A stretch of DNA of 62,060 nt from Candidatus Sulfopaludibacter sp. SbA3. Its GTDB lineage: Bacteria; Acidobacteriota; Terriglobia; Bryobacterales; Bryobacteraceae. Location: assembly GCA_945861625.1 (NCBI GenBank), contig CAMAVI010000012.1:1-62060 (forward strand), written 5' to 3'. The position numbers were made by a program, and so were the translations under genes. The notes below the pieces were generated by a model, which worked only from the letters and a program-made list of their open reading frames with translations, made no database searches and had not been told where the DNA came from. Position 1 is the stretch's first letter. The number at the start of each line of letters is the position of its first letter. Shown one piece after another: positions 1,264 to 8,576 of the stretch.

Positions 1264-1953
1264 CTACGACTGCGCGCGAACCATCGCCGCCAGTTCGGCG
1301 AGATCCAGGCGGCCCGTGTAGATAGCCATCCCCAGCGCCGCGTGCACATTCATCTCCAGCAGCGCGCGAACGTCGTCCAGTGTTGTAATCCCACCTGCTG
1401 CTGTGATCTCATGCCGGGTTGCCGCGCGTAGCCGGCGGAACCAGTCGAGGTCGGTCCCCTGTAGCATTCCCTCTTTATCCACGTAGGTACACAGGAATCC
1501 GCCGCAGAAGGGCTCCAGGCGCTGGATGACCTCCTCGGCAGCAAAATCAGTCGCCTCCTGCCAGCCTTTGACGACAATCTTGCCGTGCTTGGAATCGAGC
1601 GCGATGATGACGCGCTCGGGTCCGACGGCATCGGCGATGTCTTTCACCACGGGCGTGAACGCAGCCGTGCCAACAACAACGCGGTGAGCTCCTTGCTCGA
1701 TCAGACGCCGGGCGCGCTCCGGAGTGCGCACGCCTCCTCCGACGCGGCACTTGGCGCGCGAGGCCAGCAGTTCAACCAGCGCGGAATTTTCGCCCCTACC
1801 CATGGCGGCATCCAGGTCGATCACCTGGATTTCCGGAAAGGCCGCGAACTTGCGCAGCATCTCCAGCGGAGCATCGCCTTCGAGAGCCTTGTCGCGGCCC
1901 TGGACGAGCTGCACCACTTTGCCGTCCATCAAATCGATACAAGGGAGGATCAT
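1264..1953 (-). CDS. hisA: HisA, ProFAR isomerase
   Basis: This is 1-(5-phosphoribosyl)-5-[(5-phosphoribosylamino)methylideneamino]imidazole-4-carboxamide isomerase, which opens the ribose ring in histidine synthesis. The 229-residue protein is one (beta/alpha)8 barrel. The catalytic base Asp is in LPCIDLMDGKVVQL (residues 3-16), and the phosphate-binding repeats are GGGVRT and the region around AAGGITTLDD. The length is slightly below the usual 240. It is the last gene of the his operon, 25 bases after hisF, and the spacer contains half of a tandem 16-base repeat. The AGGGAGG-like signal seen at the start lies inside coding sequence on the complementary reading, so the start rests on the family N terminus. 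Confidence 0.95.
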   Translation of the reverse strand: MILPCIDLMDGKVVQLVQGRDKALEGDAPLEMLRKFAAFPEIQVIDLDAAMGRGENSALVELLASRAKCRVGGGVRTPERARRLIEQGAHRVVVGTAAFTPVVKDIADAVGPERVIIALDSKHGKIVVKGWQEATDFAAEEVIQRLEPFCGGFLCTYVDKEGMLQGTDLDWFRRLRAATRHEITAAGGITTLDDVRALLEMNVHAALGMAIYTGRLDLAELAAMVRAQS

Positions 1954-1964
1954 TGTCTTACGTC

Positions 1965-1996
1965 AACTCCGTCTTACTTCAACTCCGTCTTACTTC
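1965..1996. repeat. tandem 16-base duplication across the hisF stop codon
   Basis: AACTCCGTCTTACTTC occurs twice in direct succession (1965-1980 and 1981-1996). The hisF stop TGA (minus strand, 1979-1981) lies at the junction, so the duplication built the hisF-hisA spacer and possibly the last hisF codons. Confidence 0.8.
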
Positions 1997-2743
1997 CACT
2001 CCACGGGCGCCGAGAAACTGCTTCAAATCGCCCACCGTATAAGTCCCGTAGTGAAAGATCGATGCAGCCAGAGCGGCATCCGCACCGGCGTGTTCCAGCA
2101 CCTCAAGGAAATCTTCCGGCTTTCCGGCGCCACCGGACGCGATCACCGGGATATGCGTGGCATTGCGCACGGCAGTGGTCAGAGGGCAATCGAAGCCCGT
2201 CTGGACCCCGTCAGTGTCCATCGAAGTCAACAGAATTTCCCCCGCCCCGAGTTGCTCGCCGCGCGCGGCCCACTCGACGGCGTCGATGCCTTCATCATGA
2301 CGGCCACCCCTGGTGTAGACGTTCCAGCCGGCATCCGCTCTACGCCTGCGGGCGTCGATGGCGAGCACGACTGCCTGCGCTCCGAATTCTTCACTCAATG
2401 CCGTAATCAAATCCGGATTGCGCACCGCAGCCGTGTTGACGCTGACCTTGTCGGCTCCCGCATGCAGAATGCGGCGGGCATCATCAACCGAGCGGATACC
2501 GCCGCCCACGGTCAACGGAATGAACACCTCGCGAGCCGTGCGCGCGACTACGTCGACCATCGTGTCGCGGTCGTCGCTCGACGCCGTGATATCCAGGAAC
2601 ACCAGTTCGTCGGCGCCTTGTTCGTTGTAACGCGCGGCGAGTTCAACGGGGTCGCCCGCGTCGCGCAGATTGACGAAGTTGACACCCTTGACCACGCGGC
2701 CGCCGGTTACGTCGAGACAGGGGATAATTCGCTTGGCTAGCAC
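1979..2743 (-). CDS. hisF: HisF, imidazole glycerol phosphate synthase cyclase subunit
   Basis: HisF is the cyclase half of imidazole glycerol phosphate synthase. It uses ammonia from HisH to close the imidazole ring and release AICAR. The (beta/alpha)8 barrel starts [20 protein letters not shown] with the first catalytic Asp, and has the second half-barrel copy LAIDARR with the second catalytic Asp. I chose the GTG at 2743 because it gives the family N terminus and begins one base after the hisH stop. The longer open frame to 2773 adds an unlike extension. The product is 254 residues, the normal length. Confidence 0.95.
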
Positions 2744-2744
2744 G

Positions 2745-3341
2745 TTACCACGACTCCACAAAATTGCGCACAATCTTCAACCCCAGGTCGCCCGACTTTT
2801 CCGGATGAAACTGGACGCCGCAGACATTGTCTTGTTCGAGCACTCCTGTATACGGAACCGCGTACTCGCACACCGCCGCTGTCGCGGGGACGACGGGCGC
2901 ATAGTAGCTGTGCGCGAAGTAAACGTAAGGCTTCTCGCCGGTGCCGCGCAACAGCTTCGATTCGCGCAGCGGCTCCAAATTATTCCAACCCATGTGGGGA
3001 ATCCGCATGCCGCCCTGAAAACGCTTGACCTGGCCTTCGTATATCCCGAAGCCGTGTTCCTCCGGAGCTTCTTCGCTGCTCGTGAAGAGCGCCTGCATGC
3101 CGAGACAGATGCCAAGAAACGGAACGCCGCCGCGAATGGTTTCGACCAGGGCATCGCGTACTTTCATCTCATCCAGCGCCCGCATCATCTGGCCGAAATG
3201 CCCGACGCCGGGCAGGATCAGCTTCGTCGCGCCGCGGATGCTATCCGCATCACGGATCAGCTTATACTCCGCGCCGATCGCGCCCAGTGTGTTTTCGACG
3301 GAGCGGAGATTGCCGGCGCCGTAGTCGAAAATCGAGATCAC
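2745..3341 (-). CDS. hisH: HisH, imidazole glycerol phosphate synthase glutaminase subunit
   Basis: HisH is a class I glutamine amidotransferase that feeds ammonia to HisF. The nucleophile Cys is in GICLGMQ (about residues 77-83) and the catalytic His-Glu pair is in FHPEKS near the C terminus. The 198-residue length is normal. It overlaps hisB by 4 bases upstream and abuts hisF downstream, which suggests translational coupling of the two subunits that must assemble one to one. Confidence 0.96.
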
Positions 3342-3946
3342 AATAAACCCTTCGTGGACGGCAACTGATCTTTCAACCGCTCATCTGTCGAGCAAGCGTA
3401 CCGCATGGCGCGCGCAAAACACTTGAAGATCGCTTCGATTTTGTGATGGCTCGACCGGCCGTAGAGAACCTTGGCGTGCAGGTTCGCACCCGCGTGATTC
3501 ACGAAGCCGCCGAAAAAGTCCTCGACCAATTCGGCTTGCAGGTCGCCCACCAATCGCACGCGCACGCCGTCTTTATACGCCAACGCCGGCCGGCCACCGA
3601 GGTCGACGGCGACGACGGCGAGCGTTTCGTCCATCGGAAGCACGAAGTACCCGGCGCGATTGATCCCTTTGCGGTCGCCCAGCGCCTGCGCGAACAACTG
3701 CCCCAGCGCGATGCCCACGTCTTCCACGGTGTGGTGTTGATCGACGTCCAGATCGCCCTTGGCCGCGAGCTTCAGGTCAAAGCCTCCATGCTTGGCGAAC
3801 AACTCCAGCATGTGATCGAAAAATCGGATACCGGTAGAGATCTGGTACGTGCCCTTGCCGTCGATCACAAGGCTGCCCTGAATCTGCGTCTCTTTAGTAT
3901 TACGGTGGACCGAAGCCTTGCGGGCTTTGCTCACAATTCTTGGCAT
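3338..3946 (-). CDS. hisB: HisB, imidazoleglycerol-phosphate dehydratase
   Basis: HisB dehydrates imidazoleglycerol phosphate to imidazoleacetol phosphate using Mn. The two metal-binding repeats are visible: [16 protein letters not shown] with [14 protein letters not shown], and later [10 protein letters not shown] with [11 protein letters not shown]. The protein is monofunctional (202 residues). It lacks the N-terminal histidinol-phosphatase domain of the E. coli enzyme, so that activity must come from another protein, probably the HAD gene directly upstream. It overlaps that gene by 16 bases and hisH by 4. Confidence 0.95.
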
Positions 3947-4614
3947 AGGGCACTCTCAATCTCGTTGATGTTTTCGAGAATCGCCACGGCGTTCTCGCGC
4001 TCAAATAGCCGGACCAACTCATCGCGCTTCGTGTGAGTGTGCGCGGCGATACCGATGAACGGCACTCCGGCGGCGCGGGCGCAGCGTGCATCGTCGACAG
4101 TATCGCCGACGTACCACAGCTTCTTGCCCGGCCTCTTCTGTTGAATCGCGAAAAGCCCCTCGGGCGCGGGCTTGGCCGCGGTCACGTCATCGGCACAAAT
4201 CAGCGGATCGAACGCGATCTCCGGCGCGAAACGCCGCAGCGTGATATCGGCTTCGTAGCGCAGACGGCCGGTGAAGATCGAAAGATCATAGCTGTGGCCC
4301 AGCCGCTCCAGCAGGCCTGCCTTTGGGAACCAACTCTCGCGCTGAATCAGTCCGTTGCCGTCTTCCCCTAGAAAAAACTCGTTGAACTTTTCGACGATGG
4401 TGTCGTAATCAATCTGCTTGCCCAGATCGGACGCGATCTTCTGCGACAAAGCCCAGTCGTTATTCCAGCCGCCTTGATTCTTGTAGTCCTGGATGGTGTC
4501 GCGCGCGATGATCGTGCTGGTAAAGAATTTCACGGTCTGCACGATGGCTTCCCTGTAAGACTCGGTCACCTCCGCCAGAACACCATCCATATCGAAGACG
4601 ATTACGGTGTCCAC
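3931..4614 (-). CDS. HAD-superfamily phosphatase inside the his operon, candidate histidinol-phosphatase
   Basis: All four HAD motifs are present in the 227 residues: the nucleophile in [10 protein letters not shown] (motif I), Thr in SIFTGRLR (motif II), Lys in TAAKPAP (motif III) and the acidic pair in [12 protein letters not shown] (motif IV). The cap lies between motifs I and II, which marks subfamily IA. The gene overlaps hisC by 13 bases and hisB by 16, so it is surely co-translated with the operon. No other histidinol-phosphatase is visible and hisB is monofunctional. I infer that this enzyme dephosphorylates histidinol phosphate between the HisC and HisD steps. I recall a HAD subgroup (TIGR01548) linked to histidine genes; membership was not tested. 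Confidence 0.85.
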
Positions 4615-5678
4615 AGCGCCTCCAACTCGGCGAGGAAGCGCTCGATCTGCGCCCGGTTGCCGATGGTGACACGGACACAGCCGGGAATTTCGTAACTGCG
4701 GTCGCGAATCAGAACGCCGCGATCACGGAGAGCGTCGCGGATGGGAATCGCACGGTCCCCGGCGCGGAACAACACAAAGTTCGCCTGACTGCGAAAGAAC
4801 GGGATGCCCAGTTTTGCGAGCCCCCGATACACCAACTCGCGAGCGGCCAGAACTTCTTTCACGTAATTCGCGACGTATTCCGTGTCTTGCACGGCGGCAC
4901 GAGCGGCCAGCGCAGCCAGCATGTTTACGCTGTAGGGCGACTGCGCCTTGTGCATCCAGCGGACGTTCGCAACATTTGAAAACAGGCAGCCGCAGCGCAT
5001 GGCGGCCATGCCGTAAACCTTTGAAAAGGTCCGGCTGACGAAAAGATTCGGATAGAGCCGCAGCAGCGGCAGCGCCGTCACGCCGCAAAATTCAAAATAC
5101 GCTTCGTCCATGAGCACGGCTGCGTTCGGCGCGGCATCCAGAATCCGGCGGATATGTTCCATCGAAACTCCGGTGCCCGTCGGATTATTCGGATTGGCGA
5201 TCAGAATCGCGCGTGTCTCCGGCCGGATCGCGGCGAGAAGCTCTTCGAGCGGAAAAGCCAGGTCCTCTGGAAGGTAGTCGATCTCGCGCACTTTCGCGCC
5301 AGCAAGTTCCGCATAGAACTTGTACATCGCATACGACGGCTTCAGCAGCAGCACATCCGCGCCGTCCTCGACGAATGTATTGATCAAGACCTGAATCGCT
5401 TCGTCGGTGCCGTTGGAAAGCAATAGCTCGCCCGGCGCCACGGCAAAAAACGCCGCGAGCTCCCGCATGGCGTCGACGTATTCCGGATATACCGTGAGCG
5501 CGTCCGCCGTCAGCTTGTCCTTGAGATACGCGATCACTTTGGGCGAACAGCCGACCGTGTTCTCGTTAAAATCGAGGCGCAACTTGCCCGCACGCCCACC
5601 GGTGGGCGGATGATACGGAGCCATGCGCTCCACCGCCGCGCGCGGCTTGAGTGAGTTACTCACCACGCACCTCCCCAC
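4602..5678 (-). CDS. hisC: HisC, histidinol-phosphate aminotransferase
   Basis: HisC is a fold-type I PLP enzyme that transaminates imidazoleacetol phosphate to histidinol phosphate. LRLDFNENTVGCSP near residue 35 is the family N-terminal motif, NPNNPTGTG binds the substrate and cofactor, and the Schiff-base Lys is in SRTFSKVYGMAAMRCG. The length of 358 is normal. ATG 5678 overlaps hisD by 23 bases. GTG codons at 5666 and 5663 would give shorter overlaps and are equally possible. Confidence 0.95.
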   Translation of the reverse strand: MGRCVVSNSLKPRAAVERMAPYHPPTGGRAGKLRLDFNENTVGCSPKVIAYLKDKLTADALTVYPEYVDAMRELAAFFAVAPGELLLSNGTDEAIQVLINTFVEDGADVLLLKPSYAMYKFYAELAGAKVREIDYLPEDLAFPLEELLAAIRPETRAILIANPNNPTGTGVSMEHIRRILDAAPNAAVLMDEAYFEFCGVTALPLLRLYPNLFVSRTFSKVYGMAAMRCGCLFSNVANVRWMHKAQSPYSVNMLAALAARAAVQDTEYVANYVKEVLAARELVYRGLAKLGIPFFRSQANFVLFRAGDRAIPIRDALRDRGVLIRDRSYEIPGCVRVTIGNRAQIERFLAELEALWTP

Positions 5679-6891
5679 GTACTTCAGCCGACCGGGCGTG
5701 CGCTTCCAATCCCTCGGCGCGCGCCAGCGCCGTGATCGCAGGCGTGAGTTTTGCTAGCCCTTCAAGGCTCAACTGCTGCACGGCGATCACCTTCACGAAA
5801 TCCGCCGCCGACAGGCCGCCACGCAGACGCGCCGCGCCCGACGTGGGCAGCACGTGATTGGGACCGGATGCATAATCGCCAGCCGATTCCGGACTCGACG
5901 CGCCCACGAAGACCGCGCCGGCGTGGCGAATTTTGTCCAGCAAAGTTTCGTCATGCAGAGCCAGGTGTTCCGGCGCCAGAGCGTTCGACATTTCGACGGC
6001 CTGCTCCAGCGTTTCCAGCACGACAATCGCACCGTTGTTCTCGATGGAGGGGCGCGCGACGGCGGCAGTCGGCAGCGTCGCGAGTTGGACTTCCACTTCT
6101 TCGGCAACGGCTTCCGCCAGCGATTGTGAGGTGGTCAGCAGAATCGCCGACGCATCAACATCATGCTCAGCCTGCGCCAGCAGATCCGCCGCGATCCAGC
6201 GCGGGTCTCCATCGGCGGCAATGATCACAATTTCCGTCGGCCCCGCAACGAAGTCGATACCCGTCTCGCCGACGATCAGTTTCTTAGCGGCGGCGACATA
6301 AATATTTCCCGGCCCTACGATGCGATCAACCTTGGGCACGGTTTCGGTTCCATACGCCAACGCCGCAATCGCCTGCGCGCCGCCCATGCGGTAGAGATGC
6401 GGAAGCCCCAACCACTGCGCGATCCCCAGGATCTCCGCACTCGGATGCGGGCACGCCACGCAGATCGTCTGCACGCCGGCCACCTGCGCCGGAAGCACGG
6501 TCATCAGCAACGTCGAAGGTAACGGATAGCGCCCCGCTGGAACGTACGCTCCCATGGCATCGAGCGGGCGCACGATTTGGCCCAGTTTGCGGCCGTCGCG
6601 ATAATCCGTGAACCACTCAACCGGCAACTGAGTCTCGGCATACTCGCGGATATTCTTCGCCGCAACCTCAACGGCGCGCTGGAAAGCAGGATCCAGCGAG
6701 CCCCTGACCTCCATGCGCACGCTGGCGCCGTCGAAGCCGTCGAACTTTCGGGCGTATTCGAGCAGAGCCGCGTCTCCGCGCGCGCGGATATCGGCCAGAA
6801 TCGGGGCCACAATACGCTCGGCTTCTTCCAGGCGCACTTCCTTGCGCCGGATCAGTGAAGCCGCGTCTTTCTCTCTCAGAATCCGGATCAT
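5656..6891 (-). CDS. hisD: HisD, histidinol dehydrogenase
   Basis: HisD is a zinc enzyme that oxidises histidinol to histidine in two NAD-dependent steps, the last two of the pathway. Recognisable parts are YVPAGRYPLPSTLLM, VDRIVGPGNIYVAAAK, FVAGPTEIVI and GPNHVLPTSGAARLR. ATG 6891 was chosen because it gives the family start MIRILREKD and overlaps the hisG stop by one base (TAATG). The open frame to 7008 is an extension inside hisG. The product has 411 residues, slightly short of the usual 430. Confidence 0.95.
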   Translation of the reverse strand: MIRILREKDAASLIRRKEVRLEEAERIVAPILADIRARGDAALLEYARKFDGFDGASVRMEVRGSLDPAFQRAVEVAAKNIREYAETQLPVEWFTDYRDGRKLGQIVRPLDAMGAYVPAGRYPLPSTLLMTVLPAQVAGVQTICVACPHPSAEILGIAQWLGLPHLYRMGGAQAIAALAYGTETVPKVDRIVGPGNIYVAAAKKLIVGETGIDFVAGPTEIVIIAADGDPRWIAADLLAQAEHDVDASAILLTTSQSLAEAVAEEVEVQLATLPTAAVARPSIENNGAIVVLETLEQAVEMSNALAPEHLALHDETLLDKIRHAGAVFVGASSPESAGDYASGPNHVLPTSGAARLRGGLSAADFVKVIAVQQLSLEGLAKLTPAITALARAEGLEAHARSAEVRGEVRGE

Positions 6892-7760
6892 TACATTATG
6901 ATTTTGTTCAACGGATACTCGACGATTCCCTGCGCCCCGGCACCCTTCAGACGCGGAATAATCGTGCGCACCGTGAATTCTTCCAGGATTGTGTTGACCG
7001 CCAGCCACCCGTCTTCGCTCAGCGTCGAAATCGTCGGACGCTTCAGCGCGGGCAGCACGCTCAGCACGGCATCAAGGTTGCGCTTCTCCACATTGAGCAT
7101 CAAGCCAACCTTGCCCAGCGCGGCAATCGCACCATCCAGCAGCATCTTCATGTCTTCCAGTTTCTTGCGCTTTTCCGGATCCTGCCAGGACTTGGTATTC
7201 GCGATTAACTGCGTGTTCGATTCGAGCACGGTTTCGATAATGCGCAGCTTGTTGGCGCGCAGCGACGAGCCGGTCTCGGTGACTTCGACGATGGCATCGG
7301 CCAGCTCCGGCGGCTTTACTTCGGTCGCGCCCCAACTGAACTCGACTTTGGCGGTGACGCCGTTACGAGCCAGATAGCGCTTGGTCGCGGCGACCAGCTC
7401 CGTCGCGATGATCTTGCCTTCCAGATCCTTCACCGATTGGTAGGGCGAAGACTCGGGCACGGCCAGAACCCAACGGACTTTGCCGAAGCTCTGCTTGGCG
7501 TAGATGAGGTCGGCGACGTTCTCGACCTTGGCCTCGTTCTCTTCCACCCAATCGCGGCCCGTGAGCCCCGCGTCGAGCACACCGTCTTCCACGTAGCGCG
7601 CCATTTCCTGCGCGCGGATCAGCATGCACTCGATTTCGGGATCGTCGATCGCCGGAAAGTAGGAGCGGCTGCTGGTGGAAATCTGGAAACCCGCGCGGCG
7701 GAACAGCTCCACCGTGGCGTTTTCCAGACTCCCCTTCGGAATTCCCAGTTTCAGTTTCAT
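6891..7760 (-). CDS. hisG: HisG, ATP phosphoribosyltransferase (long form)
   Basis: HisG condenses ATP with PRPP in the first step of histidine synthesis. The start [20 protein letters not shown] and the internal [13 protein letters not shown] are typical. The 289-residue length includes the C-terminal ACT-like domain (about residues 210-289) that binds histidine in long-form enzymes, so feedback inhibition is expected and no HisZ is needed. It follows hisI by two bases. Confidence 0.95.
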
Positions 7761-7762
7761 AT

Positions 7763-8137
7763 TCAGCTCCCGTATACCTTACCCGGATCGTAGGTGCGCG
7801 CTTCGCTCACTTTCCATTCGCCGTTTTCCAGACGGCGGAAGAAGCAACTCTGATAACCTTCGTGACACACACCGGGCCCCTGCGCCTCCACTTTGACGAG
7901 GACGGTGTCCACGTCGCAGTCCGTCGAAATTTCCTTGACCACCAGACGATGCCCCGAACTCTCGCCCTTGAGCCACAGCTTGTTGCGTGAGCGGCTATAG
8001 AAGGTGGCGAAGCCGGTCTCCACTGTCTTGCGGAAGGCCTCTTCGTTCATGAAGCCGACCATGAGGACGCGGCCGGTCTGGTGATCCTGGATCACCGCCG
8101 GCAGCAGTCCGTCCAGTTTCGTGAAATCGAGTTGCAT
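7763..8137 (-). CDS. hisI: HisI, phosphoribosyl-AMP cyclohydrolase
   Basis: HisI opens the adenine ring of PR-AMP and depends on Zn and Mg. [30 protein letters not shown] and [11 protein letters not shown] are the characteristic blocks. Cys residues in DCD and [11 protein letters not shown] fit the zinc site. The protein has only the HisI domain (124 residues); a HisE pyrophosphohydrolase domain is absent. It is the first structural gene of the operon, about 25 bases downstream of the attenuator terminator. No clear Shine-Dalgarno sequence precedes it. Confidence 0.95.
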
Positions 8138-8160
8138 AGTTTGTCGCTTAAAAAGTTAGC

Positions 8161-8198
8161 CTCAAAAAGAAAGCCCGCCAGGATCAACCGGCGGGCTC
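8161..8198 (-). terminator. his attenuator terminator with competing antiterminator
   Basis: On the minus strand AGCCCGCC (8197-8190) pairs perfectly with GGCGGGCT (8179-8172) around a 10-base loop, and TTCTTTTTGAG follows: a strong intrinsic terminator before hisI. The upstream arm region GAGCCCG (8198-8192) is also complementary to CGGGCTC (8237-8231), which lies in codons 22-24 of the leader peptide. Terminator and antiterminator are mutually exclusive, as in enteric his and trp attenuators. Confidence 0.85.
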
Positions 8199-8222
8199 TC
8201 GAAAAACAAAATCGGTTTGTGC

Positions 8223-8300
8223 TTAGTAGTGAGCCCGTCGCGGCATGGGATGCCCGTGGTGGTGATGGGGTCCGTGATGATGATGCCTGACGACGAACAT
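8223..8300 (-). CDS. hisL: histidine-operon leader peptide (attenuator)
   Basis: This is a 25-codon open frame, ATG at 8300 and TAA at 8225-8223, with ten His codons. Residues 6-17 read HHHHGPHHHHGH. It lies directly upstream of an intrinsic terminator and hisI. The expected mechanism is that scarce charged tRNA-His stalls the ribosome in the His block. CGGGCTC in codons 22-24 is then free to pair with the terminator arm, and transcription goes on into the operon. A ribosome that reaches the stop covers CGGGCTC and the terminator forms. No Shine-Dalgarno sequence is visible, and the promoter places transcription start at about the ATG, so it may be translated leaderless. The peptide itself needs no further function. 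Confidence 0.88.
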   Translation of the reverse strand: MFVVRHHHHGPHHHHGHPMPRRAHY

Positions 8301-8308
8301 GAAATTCG

Positions 8309-8337
8309 AGTATAACAGATTGGCGGTGTCTTGTTTA
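8309..8337 (-). promoter_or_regulatory. predicted his operon promoter
   Basis: On the minus strand a -35 TAAACA (8337-8332, 4 of 6) and a -10 TATACT (8314-8309, 5 of 6) are separated by 17 bases. The -10 ends 8 bases before the leader ATG, so transcription should begin at or within a base or two of the start codon. The promoter overlaps the 5' region of the divergent TatA-like gene. Confidence 0.55.
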
Positions 8338-8342
8338 GGATT

Positions 8343-8576
8343 ATGATGATTACCGCAGTGAGCCATATTGGCCTTCCTGGGCTGCTAATGCTGGCAGTCG
8401 TTGCGGTACTTCTGTCCGCGGGAAAAAACTGGAAGCAAGCCGCCGAAGACCTTGCCGAGAGCATGCGCCAGCAATGGCCTGAGGAAACTTCGCGCAGCAG
8501 TACGATCCTGCTGGTTGCCATTCTCGTGGTGGTTCTCGTTTGTTCCTTGATTTCGGCCCGGATCTTGAGTTCCTAG
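8343..8576 (+). CDS. TatA-like small membrane protein with an extra C-terminal membrane segment
   Basis: The 77-residue product has an N-terminal membrane helix followed by an amphipathic stretch (IGLPGLLMLAVVAVLL, then GKNWKQAAEDLAESMRQ), the layout of TatA/MttA proteins. The usual FGxxKLP hinge is degenerate (SAGKNW). A second strongly hydrophobic helix (ILLVAILVVVLVCSLIS) occupies the C terminus, which ordinary TatA lacks. ATG 8346 is an equal start choice with AGGA just upstream; a TTG at 8331 also exists. It is divergent from the his operon and paired with a similar gene at 9069. A role in Tat export is unproven. Confidence 0.6.
   Translation: MMITAVSHIGLPGLLMLAVVAVLLSAGKNWKQAAEDLAESMRQQWPEETSRSSTILLVAILVVVLVCSLISARILSS

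Follow-up and report, generated by a model that had tools for sequence, protein, structure and literature searches.

A predicted ribosome-mediated attenuator with a probably leaderless leader upstream of the his operon in Acidobacteriota

Attenuators of amino acid operons in enteric bacteria come in a trp layout, built from the pairings 1:2, 2:3 and 3:4, and a longer his layout. The enteric his attenuator (hisL; RF00514 His_leader) shares its logic with the element described here, since in both a leader peptide with a run of His codons, alternative hairpins and an intrinsic terminator stand before the his operon. The two differ in that the first gene here is hisI and not hisG, in that the leader here is apparently leaderless, and in that its pairs are 1:2, 2:3 and 3:4, as in trp, and not those of the longer enteric his layout. 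A leaderless attenuator has been described in Sinorhizobium meliloti, where the 5′ end of the trpL leader RNA is the ATG of the leader ORF and, in the part of the report available, the RNA is called leaderless (PMC7298713). That system resembles ours, in which the leader RNA is probably leaderless too, and differs in sensing Trp codons, in belonging to an alphaproteobacterium and in preceding trpE(G). For ilvBNC of Corynebacterium glutamicum, the available text argues that a hairpin, H1, blocks leaderless initiation and so lets the terminator form (PMC11857589); H1 is much like the 1:2 hairpin found here, in a system for branched-chain amino acids in Actinobacteria.

Outside the Proteobacteria, His-leader attenuators have also been predicted in Firmicutes, namely in his operons of the Bacillus cereus group, some Eubacteriales and Erysipelotrichales and at hisZ and a second hisS of bacilli (PMC9413887, PMC2965389). 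These belong to another phylum, and the available portions of the two reports mention no leaderless start. Histidine operons of Actinobacteria are stated, in the excerpt available, to be preceded by no conserved RNA structure (PMC1262725). Among the matches listed in our search of the open literature, titles and the beginnings of abstracts held no report of a his attenuator in Acidobacteria; the surveys by Lopatovskaya et al. 2010 or Vitreschak et al. 2004 may contain an earlier prediction. The mechanism of attenuation and leaderless attenuators elsewhere are already known. New are the phylum, for which we found no report, the lack of a match to a known RNA family and the apparently leaderless layout, while the logic is shared with the known kind.

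The leader and switch upstream of hisI

We analysed a stretch of 62,060 nucleotides from Candidatus Sulfopaludibacter sp. SbA3, referred to as the window, in which eight his genes and a HAD hydrolase gene lie downstream of the attenuator, all in one direction. The first operon gene is hisI (7763..8137, minus strand, start at 8137), which scored above the NF000768 cut-off. NCBIfam scans identified the rest of the operon as hisG, hisD, hisC, the HAD hydrolase gene, hisB, hisH, hisF and hisA (1264..7760, minus strand), with the hisA call below its curated NCBIfam cut-off. The HAD-family hydrolase between hisC and hisB (3931-4614, minus strand) scored above the TIGR01549 and Pfam HAD_2 cut-offs and below that of TIGR01548, its best model, and its position in the his operon makes it a candidate histidinol-phosphate phosphatase.

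All parts of the attenuator sit on the minus strand upstream of hisI, as confirmed by rechecking letters and coordinates. The leader peptide ORF, MFVVRHHHHGPHHHHGHPMPRRAHY, occupies 8300-8223 and comprises 25 codons plus a stop, from the ATG at 8300-8298 to the TAA at 8225-8223. Ten of its codons are His codons, and they include two runs of four (8285-8274 and 8267-8256, together spanning 8256..8285), which makes it the leader richest in His codons among the 84 ATG-started leaders of the family sample described below (the next has nine). A longer ORF of 47 codons begins upstream of the predicted promoter, so that 8300 is the likely leader start. The peptide had no Pfam match.

Beyond the leader stop, strands 3 and 4 form a terminator hairpin at 8200-8169 (minus strand; 13 pairs, loop of 6), followed by a T run at 8168-8164. 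Strand 2 (8231..8246, minus strand) lies in the final leader codons and contains CGGGCTC at 8237-8231, which is complementary to GAGCCCG at 8198-8192 in strand 3 and forms the antiterminator. Within the leader, CGGGCTC covers nucleotides 64-70, 3′ of the His runs and just 5′ of the stop (nucleotides 76-78). Strand 1 (8283..8298, minus strand), supported by the minimum free energy fold and by coevolution, pairs as 8298-8283 with 8246-8233 in a 1:2 hairpin that competes for strand 2 and extends to the G of the leader AUG. The fold of nucleotides 8310-8150 was better than that of all 200 dinucleotide shuffles (z = −3.5).

An earlier note, made from the letters of this stretch, had proposed a 25-codon leader with ten His codons, an intrinsic terminator and a 7-base antiterminator pairing between 8231-8237 and 8192-8198, in attenuator order before hisI and with CGGGCTC in the last leader codons. 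Each of these parts was recovered at its proposed place and in that order, on the minus strand, which the note had left unstated; the −10 box abutting the ATG and the 1:2 hairpin are added here. The element therefore combines a leader rich in codons for the product of the operon, an intrinsic terminator, an antiterminator at the leader end, formed with the 5′ arm of the terminator, and a protecting 1:2 hairpin. Searches for a known RNA family gave no Rfam match at gathering score in the window and 12 low-threshold matches in the element, all far below gathering; RF00514 itself matched neither at gathering in the window nor at E values up to 10 in 8130-8360.

Conservation of the parts and coevolution of the pairings

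HisI was found in 186 of 200 genomes of the family Bryobacteraceae, and we compared 90 hisI upstream regions including that of the window, 30 from the best HisI matches and 60 picked by hand for genus spread among the matches listed. A leader was counted as His-rich when a sense ORF had 3 or more His within 10 codons and ended more than 30 nt upstream of hisI. Such an ORF was present in 87/90 regions, against 14/90 on the reverse strand, and with a stricter requirement of at least 5 His the counts were 73/90 and 1/90; the reverse-strand counts carry no position rule and are therefore a generous control. The family leaders have medians of 5 His in 22 codons, with the first His at codon 8, and a median of 28 nt separates the terminator from the start of the leader stop codon, counted at its first base. 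His number, His spacing and most other leader residues vary across the family; A-R directly precedes a His in 33/84 leaders, and R-R falls within the final eight residues in 49/84, where its codons lie in strand 2.

A rule for hairpins followed by a T-rich tail gave calls in 85/90 family regions, some of the calls being weak and that of L004 looking spurious, and four of the five misses still show a hairpin with an interrupted tail. Three of the 90 regions (L041, L045 and L064) lack the His-rich leader, and all three retain the TATACT box. Their remains differ, in that L041 has a short ORF carrying two His only, L064 has its promoter joined directly to the terminator with the ORF absent, and L045 has neither leader nor hairpin with T run. 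The earlier note had held that relatives without the His codons, the terminator or the antiterminator would count against the proposal; the parts were instead retained at the rates given above, and the antiterminator pairing coevolves, as follows.

Coevolution was assessed by comparing the pairing energy of each locus's own strands with that of strands swapped between loci, after removal of row and column means, over 20000 permutations. We preferred this design to a count of column covariation because the position of strand 2 varies with respect to the stop, so that an alignment would have had to be fitted to the structure. The family set comprised 79 of the 90 loci, after leaving out three without a leader, three with a GTG start, four without a hairpin call and L004 (weak). 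The set from outside the family comprised 17 of 23 loci, after leaving out three without a hairpin call together with L178, L198 and L206, whose hairpins are weak or distant. In 77/79 family loci, strand 2 ended no more than 11 nt before and 8 nt after the first base of the stop, position +8 also being where the search region ended.

Over the 96 loci, the 2:3 pairing averaged −17.7 kcal/mol for own strands and −16.0 kcal/mol for swapped strands, and none of the 20000 permutations was as good. The signal persisted with one locus per distinct strand 3 (n = 83, z = −7.5) and in the 79 family loci (z = −5.7), where an untranscribed upstream piece replacing strand 2 gave z = −0.7 (p = 0.25). It was also present outside the family, in the 17 loci together (p = 5e−5) and in two subsets, one of 8 loci (p = 0.003) and one of 9 (p = 0.004). 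Three of the 17 loci, L205, L176 and L207, have 90, 70 and 54 of the 95 non-cognate strands pairing better than their own. For the 1:2 pairing, again none of the 20000 permutations was as good over the 96 loci, and the family loci gave z = −6.5, against z = 0.7 (p = 0.76) for the untranscribed control.

Taken locus by locus, the antiterminator is modest. Its mean z was −1.4 against dinucleotide shuffles (below −1 in 51/79 loci and below −2 in 19/79) and −0.7 against synonymous recoding (below −1 in 29/79), and the window antiterminator alone reached −1.6 and −0.9, respectively; its strength comes from the comparison between loci. These cumulative results indicate that the mutually exclusive 1:2 and 2:3 pairings have coevolved, and that the combination of His leader, terminator and antiterminator before hisI is real and not a product of chance.

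Across the phylum, whose members live mainly in soil, HisI was matched in 126 of 198 genomes, 124 of them outside the family, of which we took 40, picked by hand for family spread and contig size. hisI was followed by hisG in 21 of these 40 loci, and a His-rich leader stood just before hisI in 20 of the 21, L185 being the single locus without one; the 20 belong to six families (f2, f14, f23, f32, f45 and f57). In the 19 loci without the hisI-hisG arrangement, a His leader was seen in only 3, although five of the 19 (L189, L193, L199, L208 and L209) showed hisI alone, with the start of the his operon out of view. Those with other gene orders have a His-run ORF about 0.1 kb upstream of a hisG match (L206), about 0.2 kb upstream of a hisD match (L207) and about 0.9 kb upstream of a hisG match (L198). 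L207 carries a terminator and an antiterminator of different letters (CCCTCCG with CGGAGGG), for which many foreign strands nevertheless pair better still, and L206 and L198 show no convincing terminator near the leader. Among the outside loci, L174, L180 and L184 gave no hairpin call, and those of L178 and L206 were weak.

A predicted promoter abutting the leader start codon

The promoter scan of the window placed an extended −10 element, TGTTATACT, at 8309..8317 (minus strand), in agreement with the family profile TGnTATACT, and a −35-like hexamer, TAAACA, at 8332..8337 (minus strand), 17 nt upstream of the −10 box; the two hexamers together score 9/12 matches. A divergent 81-codon ORF with hydrophobic stretches (8331-8576, plus strand) overlaps the −35 region of the his promoter, and its family matches were all below cut-off.

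To place the −10 box across loci, we used 107 leaders, 84 from among the 90 family loci and 23 from outside the family. For two of the outside leaders, L181 and L191, the start used was TTG or GTG, and in L181 an in-frame ATG stands two codons further upstream. Aligned at the ATG, the 84 family leaders show the extended −10 TGnTATACT and TTC or TTT directly before the ATG. A TA...T hexamer ends 8-11 nt upstream of the start in 98/107 leaders (78/84 in the family and 20/23 outside), compared with 0 to 8 of 107 in ten windows of equal width further upstream, and a stricter −10 pattern was found in 72/107 leaders at this position and in 0 to 5 in the upstream windows. The TG of the extended element is present in 70/84 family leaders, and TTGAC occurs at the right −35 spacing in 15/23 outside loci and 1/84 family loci. 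A Shine-Dalgarno-like motif precedes the leader in 5/107 cases, where shuffling predicts 7.6, and hence shows no enrichment; before hisI it was seen in 16/90, for an expectation of 9.3.

According to the available part of a previous survey, a TANNNT about 10-12 nt before a start codon most probably marks a leaderless gene, and 9.7-19.4% of genes were classed as leaderless in three Acidobacteria genomes (PMC3160421). The his leaders fit this pattern, with the −10 box some 10 nt upstream of the start codon, and show no Shine-Dalgarno enrichment. From the −10 spacing, transcription is predicted to start at the leader ATG or within about 3 nt of it, and the leader mRNA is probably leaderless, because the −10 box abuts the ATG without Shine-Dalgarno enrichment. 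For a phylum in which, on these three genomes, leaderless genes are predicted at such a rate, the locus would add an apparently leaderless attenuator layout.

Proposed mechanism, alternatives and further leaders

We consider it very likely that a ribosome-mediated transcription attenuator, with a probably leaderless leader, controls the his operon. Comparison across loci establishes the parts, their order and conservation, the position of the predicted promoter and the coevolution of the 1:2 and 2:3 pairings, and from these we infer leaderless initiation, stalling and read-through. In the proposed mechanism, transcription would begin on the leader AUG or right beside it, and the bare 5′ end would be loaded with a 70S ribosome. 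With ample charged His-tRNA, the ribosome would translate all the His codons, reach the stop and cover strand 2; after its release, strand 2 could refold with strand 1, and strand 3, left free, would pair with strand 4 and end transcription. With scarce charged His-tRNA, the ribosome would stall in the His codons, 5′ of strand 2, so that strands 2 and 3 could pair, no terminator would form and hisIGDC-HAD-BHFA would be transcribed. Assuming a ribosome footprint of the size generally known, a stall in the first His run would cover strand 1 and leave strand 2 for strand 3, while a stall in the second run would leave strand 2 free with strand 1 only partly covered, in which case antitermination would rest on the ribosome separating the two. 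Since the 1:2 hairpin reaches the AUG, it may in addition impede the loading of a new ribosome if the RNA is leaderless, by analogy with H1 of C. glutamicum ilvBNC. The locus makes testable the question of how a ribosome would load on nascent leaderless RNA in time to control a terminator that starts about 100 nt from the start codon.

Three other explanations were weighed against this mechanism. Attenuation could be real and the leader RNA could have a normal 5′ UTR, transcribed from a true promoter further upstream, with the TATACT box unused. The poor −35 match in the family fits such an arrangement, and the transcription start near the ATG is itself a prediction, but an unused box would hardly keep a constant spacing to the ATG in 98/107 leaders, against 0 to 8 across ten upstream windows, nor would one expect the extended TG in 70/84 family leaders, the correctly spaced TTGAC in 15/23 outside loci and the lack of Shine-Dalgarno enrichment; we regard this as improbable. 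Less probable again is that the element acts mainly through hisI translation, Rho or a trans-acting regulator and not through ribosome-controlled intrinsic termination. Interrupted T runs in a few loci would suit that explanation, against which the conserved hairpin and T run sit before hisI and not across its start, and no Rfam family, riboswitches and T-boxes included, reached gathering score in the window.

The least probable of the three, to which we give very little credence, is that the product of the His-rich ORF is a small metal-binding peptide that has its own function, the hairpin behind the ORF being an ordinary terminator. His richness is typical of such peptides, a terminator does follow the ORF, and there are recurring residues, the A-R before His in 33/84 leaders and the R-R near the end in 49/84. 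His number and spacing nevertheless vary, as do most other residues, the R-R codons fall within strand 2, strands 1, 2 and 3 coevolve as RNA, a His-run ORF also lies upstream of his genes in three loci with other gene orders (L206, L207 and L198), and the peptide of the window matched no Pfam family. The ribosome-mediated attenuator with its probably leaderless leader is accordingly the explanation we prefer.

Other leaders of this design were sought in the source genome. Four consecutive His codons occur in 60 places; of the 30 examined, only the two in the his leader belong to a short ORF whose start directly adjoins a −10 box. A search for TGNTATACT-N6-10-ATG gave 7 matches, against 1 in the backward control. 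One match besides the his leader starts MRLSANSFRFSYWYFTV; behind it come a terminator and a complementary strand, and then a DAHP synthase gene. This second, apparently leaderless attenuator, with Phe, Tyr and Trp codons, lies at about 1183-1335 on the minus strand of contig C35 (locus L253). When 41 genomes, the source genome included, were searched at DAHP synthase loci, a fixed rule found a short aromatic-rich ORF behind a −10 box in 21/30 loci, and inspection by eye revealed an aromatic-rich ORF at different spacing in L261, L265, L280, L282 and L283.

That leaderless ribosome-mediated attenuation is a design in general use among Acidobacteriota, for histidine and the aromatic amino acids at least, seems to us about as likely as not. 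Such a design would fit promoter, start codon, sensor codons and switch into about 150-175 nt, and its 1:2 hairpin would then also govern ribosome loading, which would make initiation itself part of the switch. The rule for the leaderless type, which covers that type only, gave no convincing candidate at ilvB, trpE or two HMGL-like genes of the source genome. At ilvB (L212, contig C75), inspection by eye showed a leader-like ORF with much Val, Ile and Leu, and behind it a hairpin and a T run; the ORF's −10-like box lies further from the ATG, so that this leader would have a 5′ UTR.
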